Positions 3,819 through 62,045 of a stretch of DNA of 64,000 nt are shown piece after piece. Source of the DNA: Ceratorhiza oryzae-sativae (Eukaryota > Basidiomycota > Agaricomycetes > Cantharellales > Ceratobasidiaceae). The translations under genes and the position numbers were made by a program. Below the pieces are notes generated by a model. It did no database searches and was not told the DNA's origin. It saw only the letters and a list, made by a program, of their open reading frames with translations. Position 1 is the stretch's first letter. Each line of letters begins with the position of its first letter. Location of the stretch: NCBI GenBank assembly GCA_030998015.1, contig JARWMV010000057.1, positions 1 through 64,000 on the forward strand. Reading direction: 5' to 3'.

Positions 3819-4195
3819 TGTCACGAACTGACACGCATACATCCACTCTACAATATTTTCTTGATTTATTACATTTTATGAGATTATCTTCAAAACATAC
3901 TTGCCTTTTATGGTATATCTGTGTCATGTGACTCAGGGAATGTTCCGGACCGGTAACCGAGATGTATTTCAACTTTGATGTGAAATTCCGCAGTTCCGCA
4001 GTCGCTTCTACTGCTTCTATCTCTTATCTGTCGTGACTCACTGTACAGACTTGTTTGTTATGATGTGGCTCATACTATGTATATAAACCGGGTCAAGTTC
4101 GCAGAGGACTCCTCAAGAACTTGACCTCTCATCGAATACAAGTTCTTTTACTTTTCTTACTATTTTTCTCGTTGCCTGACTTGTCGTCGTCGACA
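3819..4195 (+). repeat. 5' LTR of element 1
   Basis: It starts TGTCACGAACTGACA and ends TCGTCGACA (TG...CA ends). It contains the promoter and an inverted repeat GGTCAAGTTC (4091-4100) / GAACTTGACC (4117-4126), with a smaller GAGG/CCTC pair inside the loop. Confidence 0.97.
4080..4087 (+). promoter_or_regulatory. TATA box of element 1 LTR
   Basis: TATATAAA lies about 33 bp before TCAAGAACTTGACCT (4113-4127). That is a normal TATA-to-start distance and places the RNA 5' end on the sequence complementary to the primer binding site. The start site itself is inferred. Confidence 0.75.
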
Positions 4196-4197
4196 TC

Positions 4198-4212: not shown

Positions 4213-4537
4213 CAATCTGGCACAACCTTTTACAGAAGATCAGCGCTGCCGTCTGTGTGGGTGGTTTGGACACCTATCGATCCACTGCTTCACCCTCAAC
4301 TCGGTCGAAAGTATCCTTGAAGAAGCAGGGCACATCGATTTTAGCCGAGTAGTAATTATCAAAGTCCGCCCCCAGAGAGTCGGACGTGCCCAACAAGCCT
4401 TCGTCACTGAGCCAGGTGCCCCTGAGTGCAAGATCTGCCGTCGGCCAAACGAAGCCACCTTCCCCGCGCACTGCCCCTATTGTCCTAAGAAGGACAAATT
4501 CCTCTATTACTACACCATCCCTCGCAACCAGCTCTAA
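4199..4537 (+). CDS. leader open frame a: zinc-knuckle protein without ATG
   Basis: The frame is open from inside the LTR to a stop at 4535-4537. It encodes CRLCGWFGHLSIHC, a CX2CX4HX4C zinc knuckle, about 15 residues in, then a Cys-rich tail with CKIC and CPYC. The same frame is conserved in element 2. There is no ATG, so translation would need a non-AUG start, another splice form or recoding; it may also be a relic. It overlaps frame b by about 150 nt in a different frame. Zinc knuckles usually bind nucleic acid, but no function is shown here. Confidence 0.45.
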   Translation, partial: GQVLDNLAQPFTEDQRCRLCGWFGHLSIHCFTLNSVESILEEAGHIDFSRVVIIKVRPQRVGRAQQAFVTEPGAPECKICRRPNEATFPAHCPYCPKKDKFLYYYTIPRNQL

Positions 4538-4925
4538 GCTGGAGAACCTCGGTCAACAGCTTCTTCGTCACCTGTTAAACACTATCGAAAACTTCCAAGA
4601 CAGGTACCGCTATTACCGGAATAAGTACGAAGAAACCCGTGAAAAACTTCACGAAGCCGAGGCCTGTTGCGCATACTTAACTGAGCGTTTGCGCGAACAC
4701 CAGGAGGACTATCTATCCCTCCTCCAAGACCATCTCAGACTAGAAGCTATAGTCCGAGAAACAGTTGAACCCCACGAGTACGCCTTCCACGTCTTCTCAA
4801 CGCCATCAGACCTTCCTCACCCCACCTTTCTAAGTGGCACGGGCTCGCCAATTCAGGAAGAAACATCCCTTCCAGCAGCCCAAGCCAATTCTCCCCAAGG
4901 AGACACTCCTGCGGGATCAAACTAA
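4386..4925 (+). CDS. leader open frame b: coiled-coil-like protein without ATG
   Basis: A 179-codon frame, conserved in element 2 (181 codons), begins at a GTG and has no ATG. Its middle (from KLENLGQQLLRHLL to RLEAIVRET) is rich in charged heptad-like sequence and likely helical or coiled-coil. The tail is Pro/Ser-rich. It overlaps frame a upstream and frame c downstream, each step being a +1 change of frame. A +1-recoded polyprotein is possible but not shown. Confidence 0.4.
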   Translation: MPNKPSSLSQVPLSARSAVGQTKPPSPRTAPIVLRRTNSSITTPSLATSSKLENLGQQLLRHLLNTIENFQDRYRYYRNKYEETREKLHEAEACCAYLTERLREHQEDYLSLLQDHLRLEAIVRETVEPHEYAFHVFSTPSDLPHPTFLSGTGSPIQEETSLPAAQANSPQGDTPAGSN

Positions 4926-5112
4926 ATTGAAGAGGGTGGAGTGCGCATACCGTTGCCAAGACACCAAAAGTTGGGACTTGGACGACACCTGGCTAAGGTT
5001 TGCAGGGATCAGAAACTTCGAAATTTATAGACTTGTGCGGGGGAAAGAAATCCTATATTACCAAAACAATTCCCAATTCCCTGTACTTCCTTACCGTCTC
5101 CGTCGCCTTTAA
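4834..5112 (+). CDS. leader open frame c: 92-codon basic protein without ATG
   Basis: It starts at a GTG and ends 23 bp before the gag ATG. It is conserved in element 2 (41038-41316) with few changes, including the block CQDTKSWDLDDTWLRFAG. It overlaps frame b by 92 nt. No family recognised. As for frames a and b, expression would need a non-AUG start or recoding. Confidence 0.35.
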   Translation: MARARQFRKKHPFQQPKPILPKETLLRDQTKLKRVECAYRCQDTKSWDLDDTWLRFAGIRNFEIYRLVRGKEILYYQNNSQFPVLPYRLRRL

Positions 5113-5135
5113 AATTCTATCAAACCTCCTCTGAA

Positions 5136-6527
5136 ATGGCGTCACAACCTCCTGCCCCTGCCTGGGCGAATATGTCTGATGAAGATAAGGTCATCTATAT
5201 GCTTCGATCAATGGACGAACTGCGAGAGCGAACCAATAATCTCCAAAATGATATTGGGGACGTCGAACACAATAATAAAACCTACACAGATTCACTCGAG
5301 GCCAAGCTTACCACGAATCAGACGAAAATAGATGCAGACATGGCCGGACTAGCCACCAATGTCAACAACTTAGTGGGAATGTTAACCATTCTCCAAACTA
5401 CTATCACGCGCATTGAAGCGCAAGTCAACATCACCATGGGTGGCTCAGGCGCTGCTCAAGTACTAGCTCCCACTGGTACAGTCCAACCACAACCAGCAGC
5501 ACCTGCTCCCTCTGGAGGATCGACTGCAAAGGTTAAGATGGCCGCCCCTCAAAAGTTTGATGGCACAAAACGGGAAGACGCCATCTCATTCAGAATTGCA
5601 TGTGCCTGATACATCAATACAAACATGAGCGGCCACTCAGCGGACCAAGTGGTCGCCTTCATCACCTCTTATCTCGAAGGGTCAGCAGCCGAATGGGTTA
5701 ATTTGTATGAAGAATTCGAAATTCTAAACCCTGGAACTGCGATCCCCTGGCTTCACAATGCCAATTTATTCTGGCAAGAATTTACTACCCGTTATGGGGA
5801 CCTGAACCGCACCGAAAATAACCGCGACAAGTGGCGGAAGTTAAAACAATCCAAGACAGTTCAAGACTACCTCACCCTATTCAACCTATATTCCACAGGC
5901 CTCAACTACAACAATGCCGCCATGCGTGATCAATTTTACGACGGTCTGTCGTCAGACGTAACAGATAGCATGGTGGCCCAAAACTATGACCCCCGCACCA
6001 AAACCTTTGCCCAACTCACCCAGCGAGCCTTGGAAATTGACCGCCACCTCATCTCATTCGGTAGCAAACGAACATCTCATGGGGGTAATAAGTCCAGCAG
6101 CAACAATGCTTCGACTAGCAGGCCCGCGAATAACCCCCAAAGCACCTCCCAAAAAGAGAAATTCAAGAATGGGGAACGCATATACAAGATTAAAGATGGC
6201 AGGGCTGTAAAAGGTCAAATTGTAGCCATTGGCCCTAATGCAAAGGGCTTCACGGTTCCAACCATCCGTTACGATGGCAGTAATACCAACATACAAGAAT
6301 CCTTCAAGGACATAAAGAGGGACAACCATCCGCCGGCGGCCCCAAAGGCAAAGGATCCAGACGCAATGGATCTGGATAGCGCAGGAAAAGGAAAGGGGAC
6401 GAACACCTGCTATAACTGTGGAGGACAGGGCCATATTGCAGCCAAATGCCCCTCAGCTAAGATGTCAGGATACGAGGCAGTGGTTGAGGATGTAGAAACA
6501 ACCGACGATGAGTCGGTAAAAGAATGA
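5136..6527 (+). pseudogene. gag: gag of element 1, one in-frame TGA
   Basis: A 1392-nt gag frame encodes a capsid-like domain and a zinc knuckle CYNCGGQGHIAAKC (CX2CX4HX4C) near the C terminus. The start is the first ATG of the transcript. A TGA at 5607-5609 interrupts it; element 2 has CGA at this codon, so the stop arose by C-to-T at a CpG. The next codon pair also shows GTC-to-ATC at a CpG. The gag stop overlaps the pol start as ATGA at 6524-6527, conserved in element 2. Confidence 0.92.
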
Positions 6528-9500
6528 GCTCAAACCGTGCCAGGGGGGCGGTCTTGGGCGCTATGTTACAAAATGCGCATAACGAAAATAAAAATATGGG
6601 AATGGAATGTATGTCATTAGGAAACCAATCACAATTACAGTTTTTCTTTCATGCATTCCCTCTGCGCATAACCCCCGAATGCAAGTCTGCATATAACATG
6701 AAAAAATTCAACGGATGGGCCATGATCGATTCAGGGGCCACATCAGTATTTATACATGAAAACTTGGTTAAACAATACCGTATTCCTACCGTCGTCCTAA
6801 AAACACCCAAGAAACTGAGGGTAATTGATGGAAGGGAGATAGACTCTGGGTCTGTGACCCATTACTGCACCTTTGAATTGTGCATTCAAGAGCACCGAGA
6901 AATCCTCAGTGCCTACGTTGTGAATGTTGGCAAAAATGATTTAGTCCTGGGCATGTCATGGCTCAAATTCCATAACCCCAATATTGATTGGGATGGGAAA
7001 GACATGAAGTTTAACTCACCAATATGCCTGAAGCACTGCATCACAAAACCCCTGCATGTGCAAGCAAATGAACCTAAGGAGCTTCAGTTGGACTCCCTAG
7101 ACTCCCTCCCAACAAAATATAAAGAATTCCAGAAAATATTCGCTGAAGAAGACAATGTCCAACCATTACCACCCCATAGGAAGTGGGATATGGAAATAGA
7201 TTTAAAACCGGATGCCAAGCCAAGGCATGGTCCCATATATAGCGTGGGTGTCAAGGAAGATGCAGAATTGCGGAAAACCCTGGACCGCCAACTGAAAGCA
7301 GGGCATATCAGACCCTCAAGGTCACCAATGGCATCCCCAGTCATATTTGTCAAAAAGAAGAATGGGAAGTTGCGCATGTGCATCCACTACCGGCGACTAA
7401 ATGAAATGACAGTCTCTAATGTGTACCCACTCCCACGCATCAATGATATTGTGGAGACTCTGCGTGGGGCAAAGATATTCACCAAGTTTGATCTAAAGTG
7501 GGGCTTCAACCTCATACGAATTTGGGAAGGGGACGAATGGAAAGCAGCTTTTAAGACCAAATATGGGCTGTACGAGCCTTTAGTCATGCAATTTGGTCAA
7601 AAGAACGCACCAGGAACCTTCATGGCCATGATCAGGGAAGAATTCCAAGACATCAAGGGCATTTACGTGGTAATCTATATGGATGACATATTAGTATTCT
7701 CCAAAAACCAGGAAGAACACGATGAACATGTCAAGGAAGTCTTACGTCGCCTTCAAAAAGCTGGCCTATATTGCGCTCTGGAAAAATGTGTCTTCGATGT
7801 CACTGAAGTCGATTACCTGGGAATAGTAGTGACTCCCCAAGGAATTAAAGTAGACCCAGCCAAGGTTGAAAAAGCTGTTGAATGGCCAACCCCTACCAAC
7901 CCAACCGAAGTCCTGGAAGGGTTGGGGTTTGCAAATTGGTTGAGGCACTTCATAAAAGACTTTTCAAAAATTACAAGATGTCTTTATGAACTTGTCAAGA
8001 AGGATGTAAAATGGGAATGGACAGAAGAAAGGGATCAAGCATGGAATCTGCTGAAGCAAAAATTAAAAGAAGCCCCCCTCCTAATCCAGCCAGAGCCCAA
8101 CAAACCATTCATTTTGGAAACTGACGCCTCAGGCTATGCCACAGGCGCTGTATTATTACAATATGGGGAGGACGGAATGCTCCACCCAATTTCCTATTAC
8201 TCCAAGGCAATGGTCCCAGCAGAAAGAAACTATGATATTTACAACAAAGAAATGCTGGCAATTATCAAGGCCCTTAAACACTGGCGTCATTTGCTAGAAG
8301 GGGCCGAACACCCAGTAAACATTGTTTGTGATCACAAGAACTTGGAGTACTGGAAGACAAATCGGCCACTGAACGGGCGGGTCACACGGTGGCATGAGTT
8401 CTTATCCAGGTTCGAATTCAAGATTTTATATATTGAAGGGGCAAAGAATGGCCGGGCAGACATACTCTCTAGGCTGTCAAGACACATCCCGAAAGAGGGG
8501 GGTGAGAGCCAAGCTCTGCTTGCGCAAAACCAATTTTTGGAATTAAAAGCTTTGTGGTTACAAGCAATCACACCAGACCATGACCTGGAACAACTCATTA
8601 GGGACGCTATCCCAGGGGATGAGCACCTGTCAAAAGTGCTAAAAGCCCTAGATGACAATGAGAAGGTCAAAGATTGGGAATGGGATGAAGGACTCCTACG
8701 ACACAAGGGTAGAATCTACGTCCCAAATAACAAAGAACTTCGCAAACTGGTCATCGAAAGCCGTCACGATAGTCCAGCAGCAGGACACCCAGGACAGTTC
8801 AGAACATATGAGTTGTTAAATCGCAAATATACGTGGTTATCAATGAAAAAATCAGTCAACAAATATGTCACACACTGCGAGTCATGCATCAGGAACAAGC
8901 ACAGCAACCAAGTTCCCCCAGGGCTCTTAAACCCAATACCTGCACCAGAAAAACCTTGGGAAGAAATTACCTATGATCTGATCACCGGGCTACCCCTGTC
9001 AGAAGGATTTGATGCCATATTTACAGTCGTCGACCGCCTGACAAAAATGGTCCACTTTATTCCATGTCAATCGGAAGCCAGTGCCATGGACTGCGCAAAC
9101 TTATTCCTAACCTATGTATGGAAACTCCATGGACTACCACGGAAAACCATTTCAGACCGTGGCCCCAACTTTGCATCCAAATTCCTAAGGCACCTGTATA
9201 AACGGCTAGACATAAAACCCTCCTACTCTACAGCATATCACCCACAAACGGATGGCCAGTCAGAAAGGGCCAACCAAGTAGTAGAAGGGTACCTGAGACA
9301 CTACGTATCAGACCGGCAGGACAACTGGGTCCCTCTCTTACCTCTGGCCGAATTTGCCTACAACAATGGCGTTAACGCCTCAACCAGCAGAACGCCGTTC
9401 TTTGCAAACTATGGCTTCCATCCAAGGCTGGCAGTTGGAGACAAGGAGGAACAGGAATTCCCTGTAGCAGATAAACATGCAGAATGGCTTCAAAAGGGCC

Positions 9501-10054
9501 ATGACGAACTCAAGGCTGCTCTGGAACTAGCAAACCAAAGGACCAAAGAATACTATGATCGGAAACATCGGACCCCAGAAGTCATTAAGGTGGGAGATAA
9601 AGTCTGGCTCGACACCAGGAACATACACACACAACAGGCCTCCAGGAAATTGGCCCACAAGAGAGTTGGACCATTCAAGGTGGTAGCACAACACGGCACC
9701 CATGCCTTCAAACTGGACTTGCCAGTAACCATGAAAATACATCCAGTATTCCACGTCTCGCTCCTGACCAAACACAAAGACGACCCATATGGCCGTCAGA
9801 CCCCCCCACCACCACCTGTGGTAACTCCTGAAGGAGAAGAAGAGTTCGAAGTGGAACAGATCATAAAGTCACGATACAACAAAAGATCTAACGTCTTCGA
9901 ATACTATGTCAAGTGGCTCGGCTATGACGAGCGACAATGGCTAACCTATGACGACCTGGTAAATGCACCAGAACTCATCACCGACTACGTCAAGTCTCAT
10001 CCAAAGGCACCCCAGGACCCCCGTGCCTTGAAGGGGGGAAGTGTCACGAACTGA
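6524..10054 (+). CDS. pol: pol polyprotein of element 1: PR-RT-RH-IN-chromodomain
   Basis: An intact 1176-codon frame. Order: aspartic protease with DSGA (residues 69-72), reverse transcriptase with YMDD (385-388), RNase H with ETDAS (about 531-535), integrase zinc domain (about 755-800) and D,D35E core (DLITG near 815, SDRGPNF near 877, SERANQ near 913), then a GPY-type region and a chromodomain (about 1105-1160, with FEYYVKWLGYDERQWLTYDD). It starts at an ATG overlapping the gag stop (ATGA), which suggests termination-reinitiation rather than frameshifting. The stop lies 13 nt inside the 3' LTR. Confidence 0.97.
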   Translation: MSSNRARGAVLGAMLQNAHNENKNMGMECMSLGNQSQLQFFFHAFPLRITPECKSAYNMKKFNGWAMIDSGATSVFIHENLVKQYRIPTVVLKTPKKLRVIDGREIDSGSVTHYCTFELCIQEHREILSAYVVNVGKNDLVLGMSWLKFHNPNIDWDGKDMKFNSPICLKHCITKPLHVQANEPKELQLDSLDSLPTKYKEFQKIFAEEDNVQPLPPHRKWDMEIDLKPDAKPRHGPIYSVGVKEDAELRKTLDRQLKAGHIRPSRSPMASPVIFVKKKNGKLRMCIHYRRLNEMTVSNVYPLPRINDIVETLRGAKIFTKFDLKWGFNLIRIWEGDEWKAAFKTKYGLYEPLVMQFGQKNAPGTFMAMIREEFQDIKGIYVVIYMDDILVFSKNQEEHDEHVKEVLRRLQKAGLYCALEKCVFDVTEVDYLGIVVTPQGIKVDPAKVEKAVEWPTPTNPTEVLEGLGFANWLRHFIKDFSKITRCLYELVKKDVKWEWTEERDQAWNLLKQKLKEAPLLIQPEPNKPFILETDASGYATGAVLLQYGEDGMLHPISYYSKAMVPAERNYDIYNKEMLAIIKALKHWRHLLEGAEHPVNIVCDHKNLEYWKTNRPLNGRVTRWHEFLSRFEFKILYIEGAKNGRADILSRLSRHIPKEGGESQALLAQNQFLELKALWLQAITPDHDLEQLIRDAIPGDEHLSKVLKALDDNEKVKDWEWDEGLLRHKGRIYVPNNKELRKLVIESRHDSPAAGHPGQFRTYELLNRKYTWLSMKKSVNKYVTHCESCIRNKHSNQVPPGLLNPIPAPEKPWEEITYDLITGLPLSEGFDAIFTVVDRLTKMVHFIPCQSEASAMDCANLFLTYVWKLHGLPRKTISDRGPNFASKFLRHLYKRLDIKPSYSTAYHPQTDGQSERANQVVEGYLRHYVSDRQDNWVPLLPLAEFAYNNGVNASTSRTPFFANYGFHPRLAVGDKEEQEFPVADKHAEWLQKGHDELKAALELANQRTKEYYDRKHRTPEVIKVGDKVWLDTRNIHTQQASRKLAHKRVGPFKVVAQHGTHAFKLDLPVTMKIHPVFHVSLLTKHKDDPYGRQTPPPPPVVTPEGEEEFEVEQIIKSRYNKRSNVFEYYVKWLGYDERQWLTYDDLVNAPELITDYVKSHPKAPQDPRALKGGSVTN
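10030..10041 (+). other. polypurine tract of element 1
   Basis: GAAGGGGGGAAG lies immediately before the 3' LTR and would prime plus-strand DNA synthesis. Element 2 has the same tract at 36115-36126. Confidence 0.9.
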
Positions 10055-10418
10055 CACGCATACATCCACTCTACAATATTTTCTTGATTTATTACATTTT
10101 ATGAGATTATCTTCAAAACATACTTGCCTTTTATGGTATATCTGTGTCATGTGACTCAGGGAATGTTCCGGACCGGTAACCGAGATGTATTTCAACTTTG
10201 ATGTGAAATTCCGCAGTTCCGCAGTCGCTTCTACTGCTTCTATCTCTTATCTGTCGTGACTCACTGTACAGACTTGTTTGTTATGATGTGGCTCATACTA
10301 TGTATATAAACCGGGTCAAGTTCGCAGAGGACTCCTCAAGAACTTGACCTCTCGTCGAATACAAGTTCTTTTACTTTTCTTACTATTTTTCTCGTTGCCT
10401 GACTTGTCGTCGTCGACA
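10042..10418 (+). repeat. 3' LTR of element 1
   Basis: 377 bp, differing from the 5' LTR at one position by my reading (CTCTCGTCG here against CTCTCATCG at the 5' side). Confidence 0.97.
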
Positions 10419-35738: not shown

Positions 35739-36114
35739 TGTCGACGACGACAAGTCAGGCGACAAGGAAAATAGTAAGAGAATAAAAGAACTTGTATTCG
35801 ACAAGAGGTCAAGTTCTTGAGGAGCCCTCTGCAAACTTGACCTGGTTTATATACATAGTACAAGCCACATCATAACAAACAAGTCCGTACAGTGAGTCAC
35901 GACAGATAAGAGATAGAAGCAGTAGAAGCAACTGCGGAACTGCGGAATTTCACATCAGAGTTGAAATACATCTCGGTTACCAGTCCGGAACATTCCCTGA
36001 GTCACATGACATGGATATACCATAAAAGGCAAGTATGTTTTGAAGATGATCTCATAAAATGTAGTAAATCGAGAAAATATTGTAGAGTGGATGTATGCGT
36101 GTCAGTTTGTGACA
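35739..36114 (-). repeat. 3' LTR of element 2
   Basis: 376 bp, begins TGTCGACGACGACAAGTC on the plus strand and ends GTTTGTGACA. Confidence 0.96.
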
Positions 36115-39100
36115 CTTCCCCCCTTCAAGGCATGGGGGTCCTGGGGTGCCTTTGGGTGCAACTTGACATAGTCGGCGATGAGTTCTGGTGCGTTCACCAG
36201 GTCGTCATAGGTTAACCATTGTCGCTCGTCATAGCCGAGCCACTTAACATAGTATTCGAAGACGTTAGATCTTTTGTTGTATCGTGACTTTATGATCTGT
36301 TCCACCTTGAACTCTTCTTCCCCTTCAGGAGTTACCACAGGTGGTGGTGGGGGAACCTGACGGCCATAGGGGTCGTCTTTATGTTTGGTCAGGAGTGAGA
36401 CATGAAACACTGGGTGTATTTTCATGGTTATTGGTAGGTCCAATTTGTAGGCATGTGTGCCATGTTGTGCTACCACCCTGAATGGTCCAACTCTTTTGTG
36501 GGCCAGTTTCCTGGAGGCCTGCTGTGTCCGTATGTTTTTGGTATCAAGCCAGACTTTGTCTCCAACCTTAATAGCTTCAGGAGTCCGATGCTTCTGGTCG
36601 TAGTATTCCTTGATCCTCTGGTTTGCTATTTCCAGGGCTGCCTTAAGTTCGTCATGGCCTTTTTGGAGCCATTCTGCATGGTTGTCCGCTAAAGGAAGTT
36701 CTGGTTCCTCCCTGTCCCCGACTGCTAGCCTTGGGTGGAAATGGTAGTTTGCAAAGAATGGTGATTTGCCAGTTGAGGCGTTGACACCATTATTGTAGGC
36801 AAATTCAGCTAATGGTAGGAGCGAGACCCAGTCATCTTGTCTGTCTGATACATAGTGTCTGATGTACCCTTCCACTACTTGGTTGGCTCGTTCGGACTGG
36901 CCATCTGTCTGAGGGTGGTATGCTGTGGAGTAGGAGGGTTTTATATCCAGTCGTTTGTATAAGTGCCTTAAGAATTTGGATGCGAAGTTGGGGCCACGGT
37001 CTGAGATTGTTTTCCATGGTAACCCATGGAGTTTCCATACATATGTTAGGAACAGGTTGGCACAATCCATAGCACTGGCTTCCGATTGACATGGAATAAA
37101 GTGGACCATTTTTGTCAGACGGTCGACCACTGTAAATATGGCATCAAATCCCTCTGACAGAGGTAGCCCGGTGATCAGATCATAGGTAATTTCTTCCCAA
37201 GGTTTTTCTGGTGCAGGTATTGGGTTTAAAAGCCCTGGGGGAACTTGGTTGCTGTGCTTGTTCCTGATGCATGACTCGCAGTGTGTGACATATTCGTTGA
37301 CTGATTTTTTCATTGATAACCACGTGTACTTGCGATTTAACAACTCATATGTTCTGAACTGTCCTGGGTGTCCTGCTGCTGGACTATCGTGACAGCTTTC
37401 AATGACCAGTCTGCGAAGTTCTTTGTTATTTGGGATGTAGATTCTGCCCTTGTGTCGTAAGAGTCCTTCATCCCATTCCCAATCTTTGACCTTCTCATTG
37501 TCATCTAGGGCTTTTAGCACTTTTGACAGGTGCTCATCCCCTGGGATAGTGTCCCTAATGAGTTGTTCCAGGTCATGGTCTGGTGTGATTGCTTGTAACC
37601 ACAGCGATTTTAATTCCAAAAATTGGTTTTGTGCAAGCAGAGCTTGGCTCTCACCCCCCTCTTTAGGGATGTGTCTAGACAGCCTAGAGAGTATGTCTGC
37701 CCAGCCATTCTTTGCCCCTTCAATGTATAAAATCTTGAATTCGAACCTGGATAAGAACTCATGCCACCATGTGACCCGACCGTTCAGTGGCCGATTTGTC
37801 TTCCAATACTCCAAATTCTTGTGGTCACAAACAATGTTTACTGGGTGTTCGGCTCCTTCTAGCAAATGATGCCAGTGTTTAAGGGCCTTGATAATTGCCA
37901 GCATTTCTTTGTTGTAGATATCGTAGTTTCTTTCTGCTGGGACCATTGCCTTGGAGTAATAGGAGATTGGGTGGAGCATTCCGTCCCCTCTGTATTGCAA
38001 TAATACAGCACCTGTGGCATAGCCTGAGGCGTCGGTTTCCAGAATGAATGGTTTGTTGGGCTCTGGCTGAATTAGGAGGGGGGCTTCTTTTAATTTTTGC
38101 TTCAGCAGATTCCATGCTTGATCCCTTTCTTCTGTCCATTCCCATTTTACATCCTTCTTGACAAGTTCATAAAGACATCTTGTGATTTTCGAAAAGTCTT
38201 TTATGAAGTGCCTCAGCCAATTTGCAAACCCCAACCCTTCCAGGACTTCAGTTGGGTTGGTAGGGGTTGGCCATTCAACAGCCTTTTCAACCTTGGCTGG
38301 GTCTACTTTAATTCCCTGGGGAGTCACTACTATTCCCAGGTAATCGACTTCAGTGACGTCAAAAACACATTTCTCCAGGGTGCAATATAGGCCAGCTTTT
38401 TGAAGGCGACGTAAGACTTCCTTGACATGTTCATCATGTTCTTCCTGGTTTTTGGAGAATACTAATATGTCATCCATATAGATTACGACATAAATGCCCT
38501 CGATGTCTTGGAACTCTTCCCGGATCATGGCCATGAAGGTTCCTGGTGCGTTCTTTTGACCAAATTGCATGACTAAGGGCTCGTACAGCCCATATTTGGT
38601 CTTAAAAGCTGCTTTCCATTCATCCCCTTCCTGAATTCGTATGAGGTTGAAGCCCCACTTTAGATCGAACTTGGTGAATATCTTTGCCCCACGCAGAGTT
38701 TCCACTATATCATTAATGCGTGGGAGTGGATACACATTAGAGATTGTCATTTCGTTTAGTCGACGGTAGTCGATGCACATGCGCAACTTCCCATTCTTCT
38801 TTTTGACAAATATGACTGGTGATGCCATTGGTGACCTTGAGGGTCTGATATGCCCTGCTTTCAGTTGGCGATCCAAGGTTTTGCGCAATTCTGCATCTTC
38901 CTTGACACCCACGCTATATATGGGACCATGCCTTGGCTTGGCATCTGGTTTTAAATCTATTTCCATATCCCACTTTCTATGGGGTGGTAATGGTTGGATG
39001 TCGTCTTCTTCAGCGAATATTTTCTTGAACTCCCTGTACTTGGTTGGGAGGGAGTCTAGAGAGTCCAACTGGAGCTCCTTGGGTTCGTTTGCTTGCACAT

Positions 39101-39626
39101 GTAGGGGTTTCGTAATGCAGTGTTTCAAGCATATTGGTGAGTTGAACTTCATATCTTTCTCCTCCCAATCAATGTCTGGGTTATGGAATTTGAGCCACGA
39201 CATGCCCAGAACTAGATCATTTCTGCCGACATTCACAACGTAGGCACTGAGGATCTCTTGGTGCTCTTGAATACACAACTCAAAGGTGCAGTAATGGGTC
39301 ACAGACCCAGAGTCTATCTCCCTTCCATCGATTACCCTCAGTTTCTTGGGTGTTTTTAGGGCAATGGTGGGAATACGGTATTGTTTAACCAAATCTTCAT
39401 GTATAAATACTGACGTGGCCCCTGAGTCGATCATGGCCCATCCATTGAATTTTTTCATGTTATATGCAGACTTTCGTTCAGGGGTTATGCGCAGAGGGAG
39501 TGCATGAAAGAAAAACTGTAGTTGTGATTGATTTCCTAACGACATACATTCCATTTCCATATTTTTATTATGCGCATTTTGTAACATAGCGCCCAAGACC
39601 GCCCCCCTGGCATGGTTTGAGCTCAT
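36102..39626 (-). CDS. pol: pol polyprotein of element 2: PR-RT-RH-IN-chromodomain
   Basis: An intact frame of 1174 codons, very similar to pol of element 1. DSGA protease, YMDD reverse transcriptase, ETDAS RNase H, the integrase zinc domain with its D,D,E core, and the C-terminal chromodomain (FEYYVKWLGYDERQWLTYDD) are all present. RT retains CIDYRRLNE where element 1 has CIHYRRLNE, so this copy keeps the usual residue. The start overlaps the gag stop by ATGA (39623-39626). The stop lies inside the 3' LTR. Pol could be functional and might serve defective relatives in trans. Confidence 0.97.
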   Translation of the reverse strand: MSSNHARGAVLGAMLQNAHNKNMEMECMSLGNQSQLQFFFHALPLRITPERKSAYNMKKFNGWAMIDSGATSVFIHEDLVKQYRIPTIALKTPKKLRVIDGREIDSGSVTHYCTFELCIQEHQEILSAYVVNVGRNDLVLGMSWLKFHNPDIDWEEKDMKFNSPICLKHCITKPLHVQANEPKELQLDSLDSLPTKYREFKKIFAEEDDIQPLPPHRKWDMEIDLKPDAKPRHGPIYSVGVKEDAELRKTLDRQLKAGHIRPSRSPMASPVIFVKKKNGKLRMCIDYRRLNEMTISNVYPLPRINDIVETLRGAKIFTKFDLKWGFNLIRIQEGDEWKAAFKTKYGLYEPLVMQFGQKNAPGTFMAMIREEFQDIEGIYVVIYMDDILVFSKNQEEHDEHVKEVLRRLQKAGLYCTLEKCVFDVTEVDYLGIVVTPQGIKVDPAKVEKAVEWPTPTNPTEVLEGLGFANWLRHFIKDFSKITRCLYELVKKDVKWEWTEERDQAWNLLKQKLKEAPLLIQPEPNKPFILETDASGYATGAVLLQYRGDGMLHPISYYSKAMVPAERNYDIYNKEMLAIIKALKHWHHLLEGAEHPVNIVCDHKNLEYWKTNRPLNGRVTWWHEFLSRFEFKILYIEGAKNGWADILSRLSRHIPKEGGESQALLAQNQFLELKSLWLQAITPDHDLEQLIRDTIPGDEHLSKVLKALDDNEKVKDWEWDEGLLRHKGRIYIPNNKELRRLVIESCHDSPAAGHPGQFRTYELLNRKYTWLSMKKSVNEYVTHCESCIRNKHSNQVPPGLLNPIPAPEKPWEEITYDLITGLPLSEGFDAIFTVVDRLTKMVHFIPCQSEASAMDCANLFLTYVWKLHGLPWKTISDRGPNFASKFLRHLYKRLDIKPSYSTAYHPQTDGQSERANQVVEGYIRHYVSDRQDDWVSLLPLAEFAYNNGVNASTGKSPFFANYHFHPRLAVGDREEPELPLADNHAEWLQKGHDELKAALEIANQRIKEYYDQKHRTPEAIKVGDKVWLDTKNIRTQQASRKLAHKRVGPFRVVAQHGTHAYKLDLPITMKIHPVFHVSLLTKHKDDPYGRQVPPPPPVVTPEGEEEFKVEQIIKSRYNKRSNVFEYYVKWLGYDERQWLTYDDLVNAPELIADYVKLHPKAPQDPHALKGGSVTN
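36115..36126 (-). other. polypurine tract of element 2
   Basis: The plus strand reads CTTCCCCCCTTC, so the sense strand is GAAGGGGGGAAG, directly abutting the 3' LTR. Confidence 0.9.
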
Positions 39627-41014
39627 TCTTTTACCAACTCATTGTCGGTTGTTTCTATATCCTCAACCACTGCCTCATATCCTGACATCTTGGCTGAGGG
39701 ACATTTGGCGGCGATATGGCCCCGTCCTCCACAGTTATAGCAGGTGTTTGTTCCCTTCCCCTTTCCTGCGCTATCCAGATCCATTGCGTCTGGATCCTTT
39801 GCCTTGGGGACCGCCGGTGGGTGATTGTCCTTCTTTATGTCTTTGAAGGATTCTTGTATGTTGGCATTACTGCCATTGTAACGGATGGTTGGAACCGTGA
39901 AGCCCTTTGCATTAGGGCCAATGGCTACAATTTGACCTTTTACAGCCCTGCCATCTTTGATCTTGTATATGCGTTCCCCATTCTTGAATTTCTCCTTTTG
40001 GGGAGCGCTTTGGGGGTTATTTGTGGGCCTGCTAGTTGAGGCATTGTTGCTGCTGGACTTATTACCCCCATGAGATGTCCTCTTGCTACCGAAGGAAATG
40101 AGGTGGCAGTCAATTTCCAGGGCCCGCTGTGTGAGCTGGGCGAATGTCTTTGTGCGGGGATCATAGTTTTGGGCCACCATGCTATCTGTTATGTCTGACG
40201 ACAGACCATCATAGAACTGATCACGCATGGCGGCATCGTTGTAGTTGAGGCCTGTGGAATATAAGTTGAATAGGGTGAGGTAGTCCTGAACTGTCTTGGA
40301 TTGTTTCAACTTCCACCACTTGTCGCGGTTATTTTCGGTGCGGTTCAGATCCCCATATCGGGTAGTAAACTCTTGCCAGAATAAATTGGCATTGTGAAGC
40401 CAGGGGATCGCAGTTCCAGGGTTGAGAATTTCAAATTCTTTGTACGAGTTAACCCATTCAGCTGCTGACCCTTCGAGATAAGAGGTGATGAAGGCGACCA
40501 CTTGGTCAGCCGAGTGCCCACTCATGTTTGTATTGACGTATCGGGCACATGCAATTCTGAATGAGATGGCGTCTTCCTGTTTTGTGCCATCAAATTTTTG
40601 AGGGGCGGACATCTTAACCTTTGCGGTCGATCCTCCAGAGGGAGCAGGTGCTGTTGGTTGTGATTGGACTGTACCAGTGGGAGCTAGTACTTGAGCAGCG
40701 CCTGAGCCGCCCATGGAGGTGTTGATTTGCGCTTCAATGCGCGTGATAGTAGTTTGGAGAATGGCTAACATTCCCACTAGGTTGTTGACATTGGTGGCTA
40801 GTCCGGCCACATCCGCGTCTATTTTTGTCTGATTCATGGTAAGTTTGGCCTCGAGTGAATCTGTGTAGGTTTTATTATTGTGTTCGACATCCCCAATATC
40901 ATTTTGGAGATTATTGGTTTGCTCTCACAGTTCGTCCATTGATCGAAGCATATAGATGACCTTATCTTCATCAGACATATTCGCCCAAGCCGGGGCAGGG
41001 GTTGGCGAGGCCAT
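39623..41014 (-). pseudogene. gag: gag of element 2, one in-frame TGA near the start
   Basis: The frame is 1392 nt, exactly as in element 1, with a zinc knuckle CYNCGGRGHIAAKC. A TGA at 40925-40927 interrupts it about 30 codons in; element 1 has CGA there. The next CGA of element 1 is CAA here. Both are CpG transitions. An internal ATG at 40837 could give a shorter Gag lacking the N terminus. Confidence 0.92.
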
Positions 41015-41037
41015 TTCGGAAGGGACTCGAGTAGATT

Positions 41038-41316
41038 TTAAAGGCGACGAAGACAGTAAGGAAGTACAGGGAATTGAGAGTTGTTTTGATAATAAAGAAT
41101 TTCCGTTCCCCTCACAAGTCTATAGATTTCAAAGTTCCCGATTCCTGCGAACCTCAACCAAGTGTCGTCCAAGTCCCAGCTTTTGGTGTCCTGGCAACGA
41201 TATGGACACTCCACCCTCTTTAGTTTAATTTGGTCCCGAAGGAGTGCTTCCTTGGGAAGGATTGATTTGGGCTGCCGGAAGGGGTGCTTCTTCCTGAATT
41301 GGCGAGCCCGTGCCAC
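41038..41316 (-). CDS. leader open frame c of element 2
   Basis: 92 codons, colinear with 4834-5112 of element 1 and differing at only a few residues. No ATG start. Confidence 0.35.
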   Translation of the reverse strand: MARARQFRKKHPFRQPKSILPKEALLRDQIKLKRVECPYRCQDTKSWDLDDTWLRFAGIGNFEIYRLVRGTEILYYQNNSQFPVLPYCLRRL

Positions 41317-41770
41317 TTAGAAAGGTGGGGTGAGGGAGGTCTGACGGTGTTGAGAAGACGGGGAAGGCGTACTCGTGGGATTCAATTGTTTCTCGGACTA
41401 TTGCTTCTAGTCTGAGATGGTCTTGGAGGAGGGATAGATAGTCCTCCTGGTGTTCGCGCAAACGCTCGGTTAAGTATGCGCAACAGGCCTCGGCGTTGTG
41501 AAGTTTTTCATGGGTTTCTTCGTACTTATTCCGGTAGTAACGGTACCTGTCTTGGAAGTTTTCGATAGTGTTTAGTAGGTGACGAAGAAGCTGTTGGCCA
41601 AGGTTCTCCAGCTTATAGCTGGTTGTGGGGGATGGTGTAGTAATAAAGGAATTTGTCCTTCTTAGGACAATAGGGGCAGCACGCTGGGAAGGTGGCTCCA
41701 TTCGCCCGATGGCAGATTTTGCACTCAGGGGCGCCTGGCTCGGTGACGAAGGCTTGTTGGGCACGTCCAA
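41225..41770 (-). CDS. leader open frame b of element 2, coiled-coil-like
   Basis: 181 codons, with the same helical core as in element 1 (FQDRYRYYRNKYEET to LRLEAIVRET). The one in-frame ATG (about 41512) comes from ACCCGTG becoming ACCCATG, a CpG change relative to element 1. Confidence 0.4.
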   Translation of the reverse strand: MDVPNKPSSPSQAPLSAKSAIGRMEPPSQRAAPIVLRRTNSFITTPSPTTSYKLENLGQQLLRHLLNTIENFQDRYRYYRNKYEETHEKLHNAEACCAYLTERLREHQEDYLSLLQDHLRLEAIVRETIESHEYAFPVFSTPSDLPHPTFLSGTGSPIQEEAPLPAAQINPSQGSTPSGPN

Positions 41771-41932
41771 CTCTCTGGGGGCGGACTTTGGTAATTACTA
41801 CTCGGCTGAAATCAATGTGCCCCGCTTCTTCAAGGATACTTTTGACTGAGTTGAGGGTGAAGCAGTGGATTGATAGGTGTCCGAACCACCCACACAGATG
41901 GCAGCGCTGATCTTCTGTAAAAGGTTGTGCCA
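41613..41932 (-). CDS. leader open frame a of element 2, zinc knuckle, exon after the intron
   Basis: Same CX2CX4HX4C knuckle (CHLCGWFGHLSIHC) and Cys-rich tail as in element 1. The predicted splice acceptor at 41933 is nine residues upstream of the knuckle. The frame stays open some way into the intron. Confidence 0.45.
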
Positions 41933-42279
41933 CTTGAGGGCCGTGCGTTCTGTCAGAGACGTACTCGAGCAAGAGCAAGATAAAAGGAAAAATAGACCCT
42001 TTCCCAAGTCTATTGGAATAGGAAAGTGACCTCCGTTGCTCAGCTACTTAAGGGCAATGAGCGACCCCACCTCTTGTTGACGAAAGAGATTGGAGAACTG
42101 AAGCTTGTTACGACGTGTGAGGGACCTGGCTATGCAAGGTTTCACAGAGGCGCGTATAGGGCAACAATATCTTGTGGCTGTGGATAGGTGGAGTAGGATT
42201 TGGGGAAGGCAACGGGAAGTTATCTTGAGACGATGCCAACGGCGTTCCAGAACGTATCCCAGACAACACTGAGACTTAC
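41933..42279 (-). other. predicted 347-nt spliceosomal intron in the leader of element 2
   Basis: On the sense strand it starts GTAAGT and ends CTCAAG, with a CTGAC branch-like site about 20 nt before the acceptor. Element 1 has the two flanks joined at exactly these points, apart from one T/C difference at the last exon base. Leader lengths are 1287 nt here and 940 nt in element 1; 1287 minus 347 is 940. Confidence 0.85.
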
Positions 42280-42284
42280 AATTG

Positions 42285-42299
42285 TCAAGAACTTGACCT
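42285..42299 (-). other. self-priming primer binding site of element 2
   Basis: The sense strand reads AGGTCAAGTTCTTGA, two bases after the 5' LTR and identical to element 1. It is perfectly complementary to the R sequence in its own LTR. The predicted intron begins six bases further on, so splicing would leave this site intact. Confidence 0.85.
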
Positions 42300-42301
42300 G
42301 A

Positions 42302-42677
42302 TGTCAACGACGACAAGTCAGGCGACAAGGAAAATAGTAAGAGAATAAAAGAACTTGTATTCGACGAGAGGTCAAGTTCTTGAGGAGCCCTCTGCGAACT
42401 TGACCTGGTTTATATACATAGTACAAGCCACATCATAACAAACAAGTCCGTACAGTGAGTCACGACAGATAAGAGATAGAAGCAGTAGAAGCAACTGCGG
42501 AACTGCGGAATTTCACATCAGAGTTGAAATACATCTCGGTTACCGGTCCGGAACATTCCCTGAGTCACATGACACGGATATACCATAAAAGGCAAGTATG
42601 TTTTGAAGATGATCTCATAAAATGTAGTAAATCGAGAAAATATTGTAGAGTGGATGTATGCGTGTCAGTTTGTGACA
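42302..42677 (-). repeat. 5' LTR of element 2
   Basis: 376 bp. The TATA box (TATATAAA on the sense strand, 42409-42416) precedes the inverted repeat AGGTCAAGTTC/GAACTTGACCT at the predicted start site. Confidence 0.96.
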
Positions 42678-44343: not shown

Positions 44344-44348
44344 CACAC

Positions 44349-46247
44349 TGTCATGACCTGAGATGCATATATTCATCACATAATATTTTCTTGATTTACT
44401 ACACTTTTTAAGAACATTTTCAAAACACACTTTCCTTTTATGGGACAACTGTATCACATGACTCACAGAATGTTCCAGACTGCTTACCAAGATGTATTTC
44501 AACTTTGATGTGAAATTCTGCAGCTCTGCAGCAGCTTCTATCAATTAGTGATGTGACTCATAGTATAGTTGTGTTTGTTTTGATGTGGCCTGAAGAATGT
44601 ATATAAACCAGGTCAAGTTCAATGAGGCCTCCTCATGAACTTGACCTCCTCATCAATACAAGTCTTGTTCTCCTTGCTCACTGCCTTGTGACATGTCACT
44701 GTTGCCCTTACCCTCATTGTCATTGCCAAGTCACCCTTGAGCTCTGCTCCTGTAACCAAAGGTGTCCACACCATAGAGAAGCTGTGCCAGAATTTTGCAG
44801 GACTCCGGCACCTGCAGCAGGACTCCTGCGCTTTTTGGCCATTCTGGCACTGGCACTGGCACTGGCTTGCCAGTTGCCGGAGTCCGTGCCAGAATTCTGG
44901 CAGGTGCAGGAGCATGCCAGAATCCCGGGACTCCTGCAACTGGCTATGGTCAGAACTCACCACATCAAGTTGTGTAATAGCTCATTAGATGCGCAGAAGA
45001 GAGAGCATTCCAATGATATAGAGCACGTTTCATACGAAATTCATTCTGGCAAATTTTACGCAGTTCTTTTGTTCAGGTCTTTGTGGCCAACATTTCCAGG
45101 GCCATAAACCTCACCACAATCTCTCGCAAAGTAGCTCATTAAATGCGCAAAAATCAGGAGATCACAGATATGTCATTTGCTCCGCGCAAAAAATTCGATA
45201 ACGCATAGTTGTCGCTCCAAATTGATGCTCAGGAAATATTCTGGGAAATGCGCACATGCTATTTCACCACAAAGAAAGCTGTTTGAAGCTTATCCGACCA
45301 GCTAGCCTTTCTCCTGAGCTTGAAAAACCCCTACTGACATTATATCTAGTAAATACATTGACTGGATAACTATGAACCGGGGTGTGTGCAGGCAACCTCA
45401 CTGTCAACCCAGCAGAATCACTGCACATGGTCAGAAATTTATGTTATAAGCTTGTTCCAGATGTTTCAGGTACCTGAGATAGGGCAATAAGCATCCCTGA
45501 ATCTGTCTGTGATACTAAGAAAGCCAGAATAGCACTGTGTGGGTGTCCATGGCGCATTTCAGGGGTTTTCAGCATCAGGGGCGCTGTTCCCCCAGTTTCA
45601 CCAGCTAAAACACCTTCAATCAGGCTGGTTTTTGGTATATAGAGTCCTTATGATAATGCGCATCGACTCCGCGCAAGGGAGCGAGGTTTGCACGGCTGGT
45701 TTCACTAGCGCTTGTGGCGCTGTTCAGGGGTTTCCCCCTTTATATCGCTGATAACTTTCGATAAAAGCGTTCGTTTATTATGAAAATATGTGCATTCGAT
45801 TCCTCTCAGTGAGACGAGTCGATTAGTATGTATATCGCCCCAATTAGAGCTCAGGATAGCGAGCTTGAACATCTGCACATCCCCCTGAATATTTTTCTTA
45901 GACGATTCTGTGCCGATACTGCTCATTTCTTAACCGTTTGTAATCAAGTAAAGTACAATTTGATCCGCTAAATTTTGCGCATTTTATGAGTGCTTAATAT
46001 ATGCAATCCGTGGTGGTCGTGTACAGGTGACAATGTGCCAGTATTCAGGTATGCAGGTATGCAGGTATGCCAGTACTGCAGGACTCCACCTAGGACTCTG
46101 GCACCCTTGAGGCTATTCTGGCACCTGCACTGGCAACTGGCACGCTGGAATTCGCTGGAATTTTAGCCAGAATTCTGGCAAGTTCTGGCTGCAGGAGCCT
46201 GGCACAGCACCTCTACCACACCATCACTTGACTTGTCACCACTGACA
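44349..46247 (+). repeat. solo LTR, family A2, TSD CACAC, interrupted by a hAT element
   Basis: It begins TGTCATGACC and, after the hAT insertion, ends CCACTGACA at 46247. CACAC lies at 44344-44348 and 46248-46252. The TATA box (near 44600) is followed by GGTCAAGTTCA...TGAACTTGACC, an 11-bp inverted repeat whose loop differs from family A. Confidence 0.92.
44774..46215. mobile_element. non-autonomous hAT element, 1442 bp, 8-bp TSD CCACACCA
   Basis: Terminal inverted repeats TAGAGAAGCTGTGCCAG and TAGAGGTGCTGTGCCAG are bounded by a perfect 8-bp duplication CCACACCA (44766-44773 and 46216-46223), the hAT hallmark. Both ends carry dense palindromic GCCAGAATTCTGGC/CCGGAA-type subterminal repeats. 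There is no transposase frame. The empty site can be read in the A2 LTR at 2535-2575. The termini resemble those of the larger element at 52794-59669, a possible source of transposase. Confidence 0.9.
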
Positions 46248-48751: not shown

Positions 48752-49647
48752 TGTAAAGGCCATGCTGTCATGACTAAGGCCAAACACTGATGAGGCAATG
48801 GCAGACCTATGGGCTATAACAGCTGGAGGTCAAACTGCAATGTTTAAGGCAGAACACACAGTGAGCAAGGGGTCTGGTGTGATGAGATGCAGGGTAGAGT
48901 AAGGGAGCACTTGCTATGAAGATAGCTGGGCAAGGGACCTCTGGCTTGGTGGCCTAGAGTGTCACAAACTGACATGCATATATCCACTCTATAATATTTT
49001 CTTGATTTATTACATTTTATGAGACCATCTTCAAAACATACCTGCCTTTTATGGTATATCTGTGTCATGTGATTCAGGGGATGTTCTGGGCCGATAACCA
49101 AGATGTATTTCAACTCTGATGTGAAATTCCGCAGTCCCACAGTCGCTTCTACTGCTTCTATCTCTTATCAGCCATGACTCACTGTATGGACTTGTTTGTT
49201 ATGATGTGGCTTGTACAATGTCTATAAACCAGGTCAAGTTTGCAGAGGACTCCTCAAGAACTTGACCTCTTGTCGAATACAAGTTCTTTCTTTTTCTTAC
49301 TATTTTCCTTGTTGCCTGACTTGTTGTTGTCGACATAGAGGGTAGACAACAAAGAGGGTAGAACAGGAGGTTGAGTTCTGAGGCTTAAGGCTCTCAGACT
49401 CTCCCTTTATATATTGATGGCCAAGGCAGTACATATCAAATACCAGGACCAATAAGAAGTAATTATGCCACATCATCACAGAACCTTCCAGCAAAACCAA
49501 ACATTGAGTCAACAATCAACAAGGTCACATGACATCAAGGTAAATATATCTGAATCAACAGGACTTGTTCAAAATACAAAGAAATGTGTGATAAATAAAA
49601 TGATTAAAATTCATAATAAAATTGTGCTCATGGTCTAGGCCATGACA
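48752..49647 (-). repeat. solo LTR, family C, TSD GATTG, itself interrupted
   Basis: The right end is GGTCTAGGCCATGACA and the left end TGTAAAGGCC. GATTG lies on both sides in the gag frame of element D. A family A LTR occupies 48960-49335. Confidence 0.88.
48960..49335 (+). repeat. solo LTR, family A, TSD TAGAG, inside a family C LTR
   Basis: It begins TGTCACAAACTGACATG, ends TTGTCGACA, and has TAGAG at 48955-48959 and 49336-49340. This is the third level of nesting (A in C in element D). Confidence 0.93.
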
Positions 49648-50344: not shown

Positions 50345-50874
50345 TTGAACACCAATTCTGGAGCAAGCATTTCAGGGGAAAAAGATATGGACTTTGAGAT
50401 ATATGCTGTAGATAATGTTTTGCCTTTAAATATATATTTTACTGCATCTTCAGTCCTGTCCACTCCCACAAACAAAAGTGTCCACCAAATGCAGACAATG
50501 CACAGTTGGGCAATGGTTGACTCAGGTGCCTTGTCATGCTTTATTTACCCAAGACTAGTCACCCAATACCAAATACCCACTCAGAAAAAGAAAAACCCCA
50601 AAAAATTAAAAGTTATTGATGGTTGTGAAATCAGTTCTGGTCTTGTTGATATGGAATGTACATTTATTTTAAAAATAGGCAGTCACAAAGAACAATTAGT
50701 TTGTAATGTAGCAGACATAGACAGATGCATCCTTGTACTTGGAATGTCCTGGCTCAAATTACATAACCCTAGTATAGACTGGCCTAACAAACATCTTACC
50801 TTTGATTCTTCCTACTGTATAAAAAATTGTGTCCCAGCTTCTAATGTAGTTCTTGGTAATGTCAGGGGCCATTT
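50345..50874 (+). pseudogene. pol: element D pol, protease part
   Basis: The frame contains MVDSGALSCFIYPRLV (aspartic protease active site) and ILVLGMSWLKLHNPSIDW, aligning with residues 65-160 of element 1 pol. It is cut by the LTR at 50875. Confidence 0.85.
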
Positions 50875-51245
50875 GTGTCACAAACTGACATGCATATATT
50901 CTCTTTACAATTTTTTCTTGATTTATTATATTTTAGGAGATCATTTTCAAAACATACTTGCCTTTTATGGTATATCTGTATCATGTGACCCATGGAATGT
51001 TCCAGACTGCTGACTGAGATGTATTTCAACTCTGATATGAAATCCCACAGCTCTGCAGCAGCTTCTATCCCCTATTGGATGTGACTCACTGTATGGACTT
51101 GTTTGTTATGATGTGGCTCATGAGATGTATATATACTGGGTCAAGTTCACAGAGGACTCCTCAAGAACTTGACCTCTGTTGAATACAAGTTCTTTTATTC
51201 TCTTTATTTCTGTTTTGCTCATCACCTGACTTGTTGTTCTCAACA
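50875..51245 (+). repeat. solo LTR, family A, TSD ATTTG
   Basis: It begins TGTCACAAACTGACATG and ends TTCTCAACA; ATTTG at 50870-50874 and 51246-51250. It is diverged from the LTRs of elements 1 and 2 and CpG-poor. Confidence 0.92.
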
Positions 51246-60332: not shown

Positions 60333-62045
60333 TCAGCAGTCCTTCAGGACATGCCCTGATTTACTGCATTTGATACAGAGTCCTTCTTTCCTTTGCTTGT
60401 CTTTTTCACTGTTTGGTATTCTTACCATGTTGTTAGTTTGGGTATTCCCTGGTTTGCTGCTGGTCCCTGAAGGCTTGTTCCCCCCTTGTTTGTATTTTGC
60501 TGGTGCCCAAGTTGAATTTGATGAGTTGCTGGTCCTTGCATTCATTTTCTGGTTTGCAAACTGCATGTCATCCATTTTGCAGGCAAAGTCAATTGGTTGA
60601 TCTAGGGCAGATGATGGTCCTTTGGCCTCATTTGCCAGCACTTCAATCCTTAAGATCTCTTGTTGTACTTCAGGTTTTAACCCTTCCCTGAATTGGTCCT
60701 TGAGGGCTTCCTGGTTCCAGTCTACCTCTTGGATCAGGATCTGGAATTGGGTAGCATAATCCAATGCACTCTTGGTTTGTGTTAATTTCCTTAGCTTCCA
60801 GATGGTCTTTTCCTTTATGACTGGGTTGTTAAAGGCATCCAGGAATCCCTTCCTGAAATCCTTCCAGGATGCAAGGATCCCTGTGCATTCACCTGCTAGT
60901 AGTTTCCAGCAGTAAGGTTGTGCCCAGTTTGCTGCTTCCCCATCCTCCATGTTCATTAACACAGTAGATATCTTTTTTCAGTCATCAAAGGCTGATTTGT
61001 CATAGTCAGCAAAGAAAAGTTCCATGCCAATTATGAAGTTCTCTGCTTCCTTCCCCTTTTTCCTGTTAAATTTGCTGGGTCTCCCTAGTTGCACCTCCTT
61101 AGGAGTGTGGTTTGCAGCAAGGGTAGGTTGGTTTGCTTGGGATGGAGGTTCTGTTCAGGGTCTCATTGTGGACTTGGCCTGGAAGGTTCTTCCCAGAAAG
61201 GGTGTTTGTACTGGGGAGGCTGAGGGGGATTGTGAGGGGCTTCCTATGACCACCCTAGTTCTTCCCCTGTTCTCTTCTGTCCTTTCCCTCAGCCTTCCTG
61301 CTTCAGTTGTTTTCTGGAGCTCATTTCCTAGATCAGTTACCTGTTGTTCTAGTACAGTCAGGATCTCCCCTGTGTTTTCAGTTTTCTTCTCTAAGCTTTC
61401 AAGCTTTTGCTCTTGCATTCCCAATACCTGGTTTATTTCCAAGGAGATGTCCTTTTATTCTTTTATCAGGTTCCCCATTTCTGCTTTCAGGTTGTCCTGG
61501 TTCTTTGCCACATAGAGGACATTTCTGTTGGATGTTTCCATTGATCTTACCATCCAGTCCACGTTTCCTTCTTGTTGTGTTAGTGATATTTGACACTGGT
61601 TTATACTTGTGATTGCCTTTTCTAGTTCCCTATGGTTATTGTCTCTAAGTTCCTTGAGCCCTGCCCTGATGGCAGTGGCAATGGTGTGAATAGGGTTGGC
61701 AGTGGTTATGGCTCTGGAACCTGGCTGGGGTTGTGTCCTTGCATCTTCTGCCAAGGCTGTGCCTTGTTTGTATATGGTTCAGGTCATATCTTCTACCTCA
61801 TCCCTCTCTGGATTTGAGATATCTTCTGGGTCTGGATTTATCATGAGAATTGGCAGTTGAGGGCTGCGGAGTGGTATTCCCCTTATTTGCCCTCCCAGGA
61901 TGGGGGCCTGAGTGGGGTTAGGTTGAGCCACTGGTTGTGGATTTTGTGGCAACCCCCCTGGCATTCCTTGGAGGGTTTCATCTGCATTACCTTTGGCCTC
62001 TGGGGGAGTAACAGGTTTGGGTGATTGTGGTCTACTATTTGCCAC
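60333..62045 (-). pseudogene. gag: element E gag, several stops
   Basis: Four open pieces in order: a Pro-rich N terminus (62045-61779), a helical part (61754-61455), a Gln/Glu-rich coiled coil (61442-61155) and a capsid-like part with WKDFRKGFLDAFNNPVIKEK, ending in a CX2CX4HX4C knuckle CIKCSKSGHVLKDC (60962-60333). Stops separate the pieces. It differs clearly from gag of elements 1 and 2. Confidence 0.78.

Follow-up and report, generated by a model that had tools for sequence, protein, structure and literature searches.

A number of LTR retrotransposons, namely Ogre, BARE, EVADE and Cer1, are capable of partial splicing according to the accessible parts of their descriptions (PMC6317226, PMC12786077, PMC3735527, PMC10309623). 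Transcripts of the plant Ty3/Gypsy element Ogre are partly spliced and its intron is kept in the genomic copies, as stated in the available sections of two reports (PMC6317226, PMC12786077). The Ty1/copia element BARE1 has a small intron within gag, and the accessible text describes its spliced RNA as translated and another RNA as replicated (PMC3735527). The spliced RNA of the LTR element Cer1 of C. elegans encodes an additional protein, CERV, which is needed for export of the unspliced RNA (PMC10309623). Retroviruses prefer the unspliced RNA as genome (PMC5035971, available in part), and self-priming elements carry a primer site complementary to the 5' region of their own RNA (PMC6317226, in its accessible part). 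The retention of an intron by an element that is copied from RNA is an old puzzle, as passage through spliced RNA ought to remove it every time. Here, one genome with about 300 leader sites and repeated exact losses makes the rate and fate of spliced-RNA copying readable from DNA. The locus lies in a 64,000-nucleotide stretch of Ceratorhiza oryzae-sativae (the window) and holds two copies of a Ty3/Gypsy chromodomain element. Sequence comparison makes it very probable that a 347-nt segment in the leader of this element is a spliceosomal intron and that 14 sites without it came from repeated reverse transcription of spliced RNA. The recurrent retrocopying is the firmest part of this reading and can be held with high confidence, while a retrovirus-like switch built on the intron has a little less than an even chance; the splicing itself we infer from the borders and losses described below.

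Element 1 (3819-10418, plus strand) and element 2 (35739-42677, minus strand) each extend from LTR to LTR and their bodies are 92% identical. The LTRs of element 1 (5' LTR 3819..4195; 3' LTR 10042..10418) are 99.7% identical and flanked by the target duplication CTTGG, and those of element 2 (5' LTR 42302..42677; 3' LTR 35739..36114) are 98.4% identical and flanked by ACAAG. In both elements gag (5136..6527 and 39623..41014) carries an in-frame stop, after 157 codons in element 1 and at codon 30 in element 2, and pol (6524..10054 and 36102..39626) is open, that of element 2 encoding protease, RT, RNase H, integrase and chromodomain. Pfam models matched above their cut-offs were Retrotrans_gag, zf-CCHC, RVP_2, RVT_1, RT_RNaseH, Integrase_H2C2, rve and Chromo. 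By the zinc knuckle of gag, the order of protease, RT, RNase H, integrase and chromodomain, and LTRs with a short target duplication, the family is a Ty3/Gypsy chromovirus. The closest named relatives of gag are in Ceratobasidium sp. AG-Ba (46-55% identity) and Rhizoctonia solani AG-8 (40%), with one further relative at 93% identity, and a search for relatives of pol in viral contigs found none. The stop of gag and the start of pol overlap as ATGA in both elements (6524-6527, plus strand; 39626-39623, minus strand), which suggests coupled termination and reinitiation rather than frameshifting.

Elsewhere in the window, an LTR fragment of the same family occupies 1-276 and an open frame with a DDE_3 transposase domain 258-1277. 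Further LTRs lie at 48958-49335, 50875-51245, 2561-2992 and 44345-44771, of which one is about 91% and one about 82% like the element LTRs, and two are of a related family (about 77%). Host-like frames at 18274-19527 and 20918-23676 contain an I/LWEQ domain and two parts of DUF5695, and other Gypsy fragments at 60333-60962 (minus strand) and 50345-51013 (plus strand) a gag domain and a weak protease match below the cut-offs.

In the 5' region of element 2, all on the minus strand, a TATA box (TATATAA, 42416-42410) is followed by the block TCAAGAACTTGACCT at 42369..42383, which starts 33 nt past the start of TATATAA in the predicted 5' end region of the RNA and is complementary to the primer site AGGTCAAGTTCTTGA at 42285..42299; self-priming is predicted. 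The predicted donor lies 5 nt downstream of this primer site. An earlier note on this DNA had described 347 nt between GTAAGT and CTCAAG directly after the primer site of element 2, and the segment was confirmed at 42279-41933. Element 1 was said to be without precisely this segment, and its intronless junction indeed reads AATC/TGGCAC at 4217..4218 (the slash marks the join), or GACAATC/TGGCACAACC at more length. The exon-side bases of element 2, GACAATT and TGGCACAACC, match these apart from the one T/C difference already recognised. The leaders, measured from the LTR end to the gag ATG, are 940 nt (4196-5135) and 1287 nt (42301-41015) long and differ by the 347 nt claimed, and the branch-like CTGAC placed about 20 nt before the acceptor was found at 41956-41952 with its A 20 nt upstream.

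The 48.8-Mb assembly (253 contigs) was searched for further copies. With the leader of element 2 as query, the best 40 of 331 candidates were scored, and at least 40 copies, its own among them, carry the segment at 94-100% identity. Pattern searches, which pass over more diverged copies, gave 218 sites for the CTCAAG acceptor when up to 2 mismatches were allowed (1 in the backward control), 68 for the CTCAG acceptor (control 0; at least one of them, on contig C56, also fits the CTCAAG form), 246 for the donor with up to 3 mismatches (control 0) and 14 for the intronless junction (control 0), element 1 among these. A pattern tuned to a third subfamily returned the same 14 intronless junctions. 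The tally stands at about 285 intron-type sites against 14 intronless ones. L043 and L044 share their 5' flank and represent one insertion, and L044 was dropped before the counts; L075, L076, L090 and L092 were dropped as exon 1 was absent within 480 nt, leaving 68 readable leader rows with the segment and 13 distinct rows without it. The pairs L043/L044 and L075/L076 (contigs C237 and C12) have the same neighbour arrangement, which looks like segmental duplication. The complement of the primer site within the LTR spans 15 nt in 60 of the 81 rows and 9-16 nt in the rest, the RNA start being predicted.

All 68 intron rows share the borders seen in element 2. Young intron copies have GT...AG ends, CTGAC or CTAAC 20 nt upstream of the acceptor and the same exon borders, and older copies end in CTCAG in place of CTCAAG with the exon border still at AG. 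The earlier note had proposed tabulating breakpoints across the family: all 14 intronless sites (AATC/TGGCACAA in 14/14) are cut at the exact GT-AG boundary with no varied ends, and intron copies end in CTCAAG or CTCAG. Such borders, the branch-like site and the exact loss, probably through cDNA, are those expected of a U2-type spliceosomal intron, with a decayed AT donor in 4 of the 68 rows. The donor context was C/GTAAGT in 48 rows, T/GTAAGT in 16 and C/ATAAGT in four, and the junction reads CTG in 13/13 distinct intronless rows. A simple reading of the T/C exon difference would be CpG decay in C/GTAAGT, T/G and C/A being its two products, with the CpG gone from intronless rows. The intron measures about 345 nt in 56 rows and 386-407 nt in 12. 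In an alignment of 19 introns the extra length is mostly due to a block of nearly 60 nt, which some copies have and others lack (noted for L077-L084, L093, L099, L103 and L104), under both acceptor forms.

The 3' LTR was readable in eight intronless copies, among them element 1. All eight are separate insertions, each flanked by its own matching 5-bp target duplication, and their LTR pairs differ at 1, 3, 8, 3, 11, 4, 6 and 14 of about 377 positions; five of the remaining copies had no LTR match in the 3' piece and for L041 no 3' piece was taken. A leader tree was built from the 398 nt before the junction and about 410 nt after it, with the intron omitted, for 80 rows (67 with and 13 without intron; L009@464 was too short and left out). 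It required 13 changes for the 13 intronless rows (bootstrap range 12-13; label-shuffle mean 12.3), at least nine of them forced by starred branches, and again 13 when the long row L007@952 was removed. The tree is weakly resolved (15/77 starred branches, 30/77 forks open, bootstrap not settled) and a single loss may underlie both L039 and L041; what can safely be stated is a minimum of nine separate losses. It replaced a first tree of exon 2 and gag, from which older intron copies were missing and which gave 10 changes (at least four forced) and two intronless groups, with L038, L040, L043 and L044 in one clade. Several of its rows left homology early, L039 after 203 nt, L041 after 255, L042 after 452 and L005 after 625, and the pairing of L041 with L042 in it was rejected as an artefact: in each, exon 2 gives way to an inverted LTR of this family, 255 nt past the junction in L041 and 452 nt past it in L042.

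By pairwise distance, the nearest relative of each of seven young intronless copies (L031 to L037) is an intron copy on both sides of the junction, with L031 tied with the intronless L032, and the nearest row of L038 to L044 is mostly intronless in a comparison still without the older intron copies. Element 1 was also considered as a daughter of element 2 and rejected, as their bodies are only 92% identical and its closest relatives are the intron copies L056 and L028, tied with intronless L032. The proposal that element 1 was copied from spliced RNA, and that such RNA can be reverse transcribed, comes out of this strengthened, with the losses repeated rather than a single event. All 13 losses lie on end branches, which make up 83% of the tree length; at p 0.09 under neutrality, sterility of the intronless copies is only suggestive.

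Other origins for the intronless sites can be weighed against the same data. Deletions are common in transposable elements, and chance or repeat-mediated genomic deletion might be invoked, but the end points are identical at 14/14 sites, and deletion via direct repeats would have no substrate because no bases are common to exon 1 and the intron end or to the intron start and exon 2; we give this next to no chance. It is also extremely unlikely that the intronless state is ancestral and that the segment came in later, by insertion of an intron or a mobile element. Although this comparison is confined to copies within one genome, each intronless row stands alone among rows with the intron, in young as well as old subfamilies, the borders have no target duplication or shared bases, and repeated identical gain at the same base is not credible. 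The spread of the 5' end of one intronless lineage by template switching or gene conversion would fit the grouping of the four older intronless rows in the first tree and the rise of divergence along the element, which hints at mosaic histories. We hold it to be very improbable, however. The leader tree rests on just the sequence that such a transfer would carry along (LTR, exon 1 and 410 nt at the start of exon 2) and still needs 13 changes, and on either side of the junction each of the seven young intronless copies is closest, outright or in a tie, to a copy with the intron. Repeated copying of spliced RNA accounts best for the data.

The intron is as conserved as protein-altering sites, beyond its own splice signals. 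When 9 younger intron copies were compared with 7 older ones, divergence was 0.130 in the intron, 0.131 at positions 1 and 2 and 0.279 at position 3 of the adjacent frame F2 described below, and 0.121 in LTR U3. The intron is slower than the adjacent silent sites (p 0.0002; transversions p 0.0012), and no rate difference was found between it and LTR U3, than which it is no slower. Its slowest stretch lies at positions 200-250 (0.060, and 0.021 outside CpG). Since divergence climbs along the element towards gag, comparisons were confined to neighbouring segments; the histories of the elements may be mosaic. A search for RNA structure in the intron gave a single-sequence fold no better than shuffles (z -0.41). 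A consensus fold of 19 sequences was set aside as well: 13 of its 89 pairs change on both sides, but most of these go from CG to UA, a change that decay of a CpG on each strand can produce.

The earlier note had treated the region before gag as a plain leader, which does not hold, as the part after the intron is coding and three frames ahead of gag evolve as protein. Exon 2 opens straight into F2, which has 106 codons and a CX2CX4HX4C motif recognised by eye and stays open over that length in 60 of 81 rows. Next come F0 and F1, both shifted in frame and both closed by TAA, and then gag. In element 2, F2 covers 41613..41932 (AUG-less; TAA at 41615-41613), the helical, coiled-coil-like F0 41225..41614 (TAA at 41227-41225) and F1 41038..41224 (TAA at 41040-41038), the starts of the last two being putative; in element 1 the three frames lie within 4218..5112, with stops at 4535, 4923 and 5110. 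When 14 younger copies were compared with 9 older ones, each of the three frames showed its excess of changes at the expected third positions (p 0.0002, 0.007 and 0.0002), as in gag used as a control (0.0002), and the favoured frame changes near each leader-frame stop. This pattern was absent from every frame of the last 190 nt of the intron and of 110 nt of exon 1. A frame change accompanies each TAA (4218-5112, plus strand; 41932-41038, minus strand), and the two changes after F2 count against the switch model considered below. A small deletion in L037 lets F2 read into F0. A second intron joining F2 to F0 was looked for, and the short stretch inspected ahead of the F2 stop holds no GT. The protein database gave no homologue of F2 or F0 at E 0.01 (1 and 13 candidates scored), and Pfam returned no match for F2 and for F0 only models below their own cut-offs.

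The region from the predicted RNA start to gag is depleted in AUG, with none in 1023 nt of element 1 and two in 1369 nt of element 2, compared with shuffled expectations of 7.8 and 11.1 (0 of 1000 shuffles reached so low a count); CAT, the reverse triplet, occurs 9 and 12 times and shows no depletion. No AUG is present in exon 1 of 53/53 rows or in the intron of 21/39. At the opening of F2 the predicted join of C to TG makes the near-cognate codon CTG (48 + 4 of the 68 intron rows), with A at -3 and G at +4. Element 2, where the last base of exon 1 (42280) would join 41932-41931 (TG), has TTG instead, and in element 1 the predicted CTG start would take base 4217. Exon 1 differs in length by single bases among rows, and for this reason a reading frame is not kept upstream of the junction. 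The junction CTG is a candidate start codon of F2.

The mechanism that these features would allow can be set out as follows. The unspliced RNA would serve as genome and gag-pol messenger, and splicing would join C to TG to give a CUG start for an AUG-less protein ahead of gag, comprising the zinc-knuckle frame F2 and perhaps continued in F0 and F1. The spliced RNA could still be reverse transcribed because the primer site, 5 nt upstream of the donor, would stay in it, and the intron would carry a signal that is missing from the intronless offspring. Unspliced RNA is likely favoured as genome because most counted sites hold the intron. The imbalance of about 285 to 14 might mean that splicing is rare, that unspliced RNA is chosen or that intronless copies fail; choice combined with failure is favoured in our analysis. 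The whole scheme, a switch in which splicing assembles the C/UG start of a frame-hopping accessory protein, the retained intron marks the genome RNA, copies of spliced RNA are recurrent dead ends and their number would be a tally of packaging errors, must be called unlikely in full, though possible.

Its main competitor also takes the intron as genuine and its loss as the result of copying spliced RNA, but sees its sole role in raising RNA accumulation, intronless copies being poorly expressed, with no switch or packaging signal. The position of the intron near the 5' end suits this, and intron-dependent mRNA accumulation is described, in the accessible parts of the reports, for Cryptococcus neoformans (PMC3744415) and for mushrooms (PMC8379801, PMC4935854, PMC7017817). 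However, efficient splicing with blind packaging would make most new copies intronless, against the 14 and about 285 sites counted, and the intron is conserved beyond its splice signals. We regard this explanation as a serious candidate that is nevertheless doubtful as the sole one, and RNA accumulation and a choice of RNA at packaging may both act. If the CUG and packaging steps of the switch hold true, this would be a splice switch outside the animal retroviruses, and its start codon would come into being only through splicing. A conserved protein ahead of gag can, moreover, escape annotation that relies on AUG.

The family resembles self-priming chromoviruses of the Tf1/sushi type in its chromodomain pol with a Tf2-1-like SH3 domain, and may also do so in its primer site, which is complementary to the predicted 5' region of the RNA. 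To our knowledge, Tf1 has no leader intron or extra frames before gag. The accessible parts of the descriptions of Ogre, BARE, EVADE and Cer1 mention neither an intron placed immediately behind the primer site nor genomic copies that have lost one exactly and repeatedly. No leader intron of a fungal Gypsy element was found in the literature searched, with subscription journals mostly outside its reach. The Ogre intron lies, in the available text, between the gag-protease and RT frames, whereas that of the window family lies between the primer site and F2, which sets it apart from the Ogre type. The spliced RNA of BARE1 is argued not to be replicated (PMC3735527), whereas here it apparently is, and repeatedly. 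Cer1 has a five-exon mRNA sharing exons with gag, and no intron directly after the primer site is described in the available portion of its report (PMC10309623). There is also a likeness to the retroviral leader donor, which follows the primer site and goes with a preference for unspliced RNA as genome (PMC5035971, in its accessible part). Unlike in retroviruses, the acceptor of the window family stands before gag, so that gag-pol stays in the spliced RNA, and there is no env. In MLV, glyco-gag starts at a CUG upstream of gag that is genomic and in frame with gag. The CUG of the window family, in contrast, would exist only after the predicted splicing or after loss of the intron.
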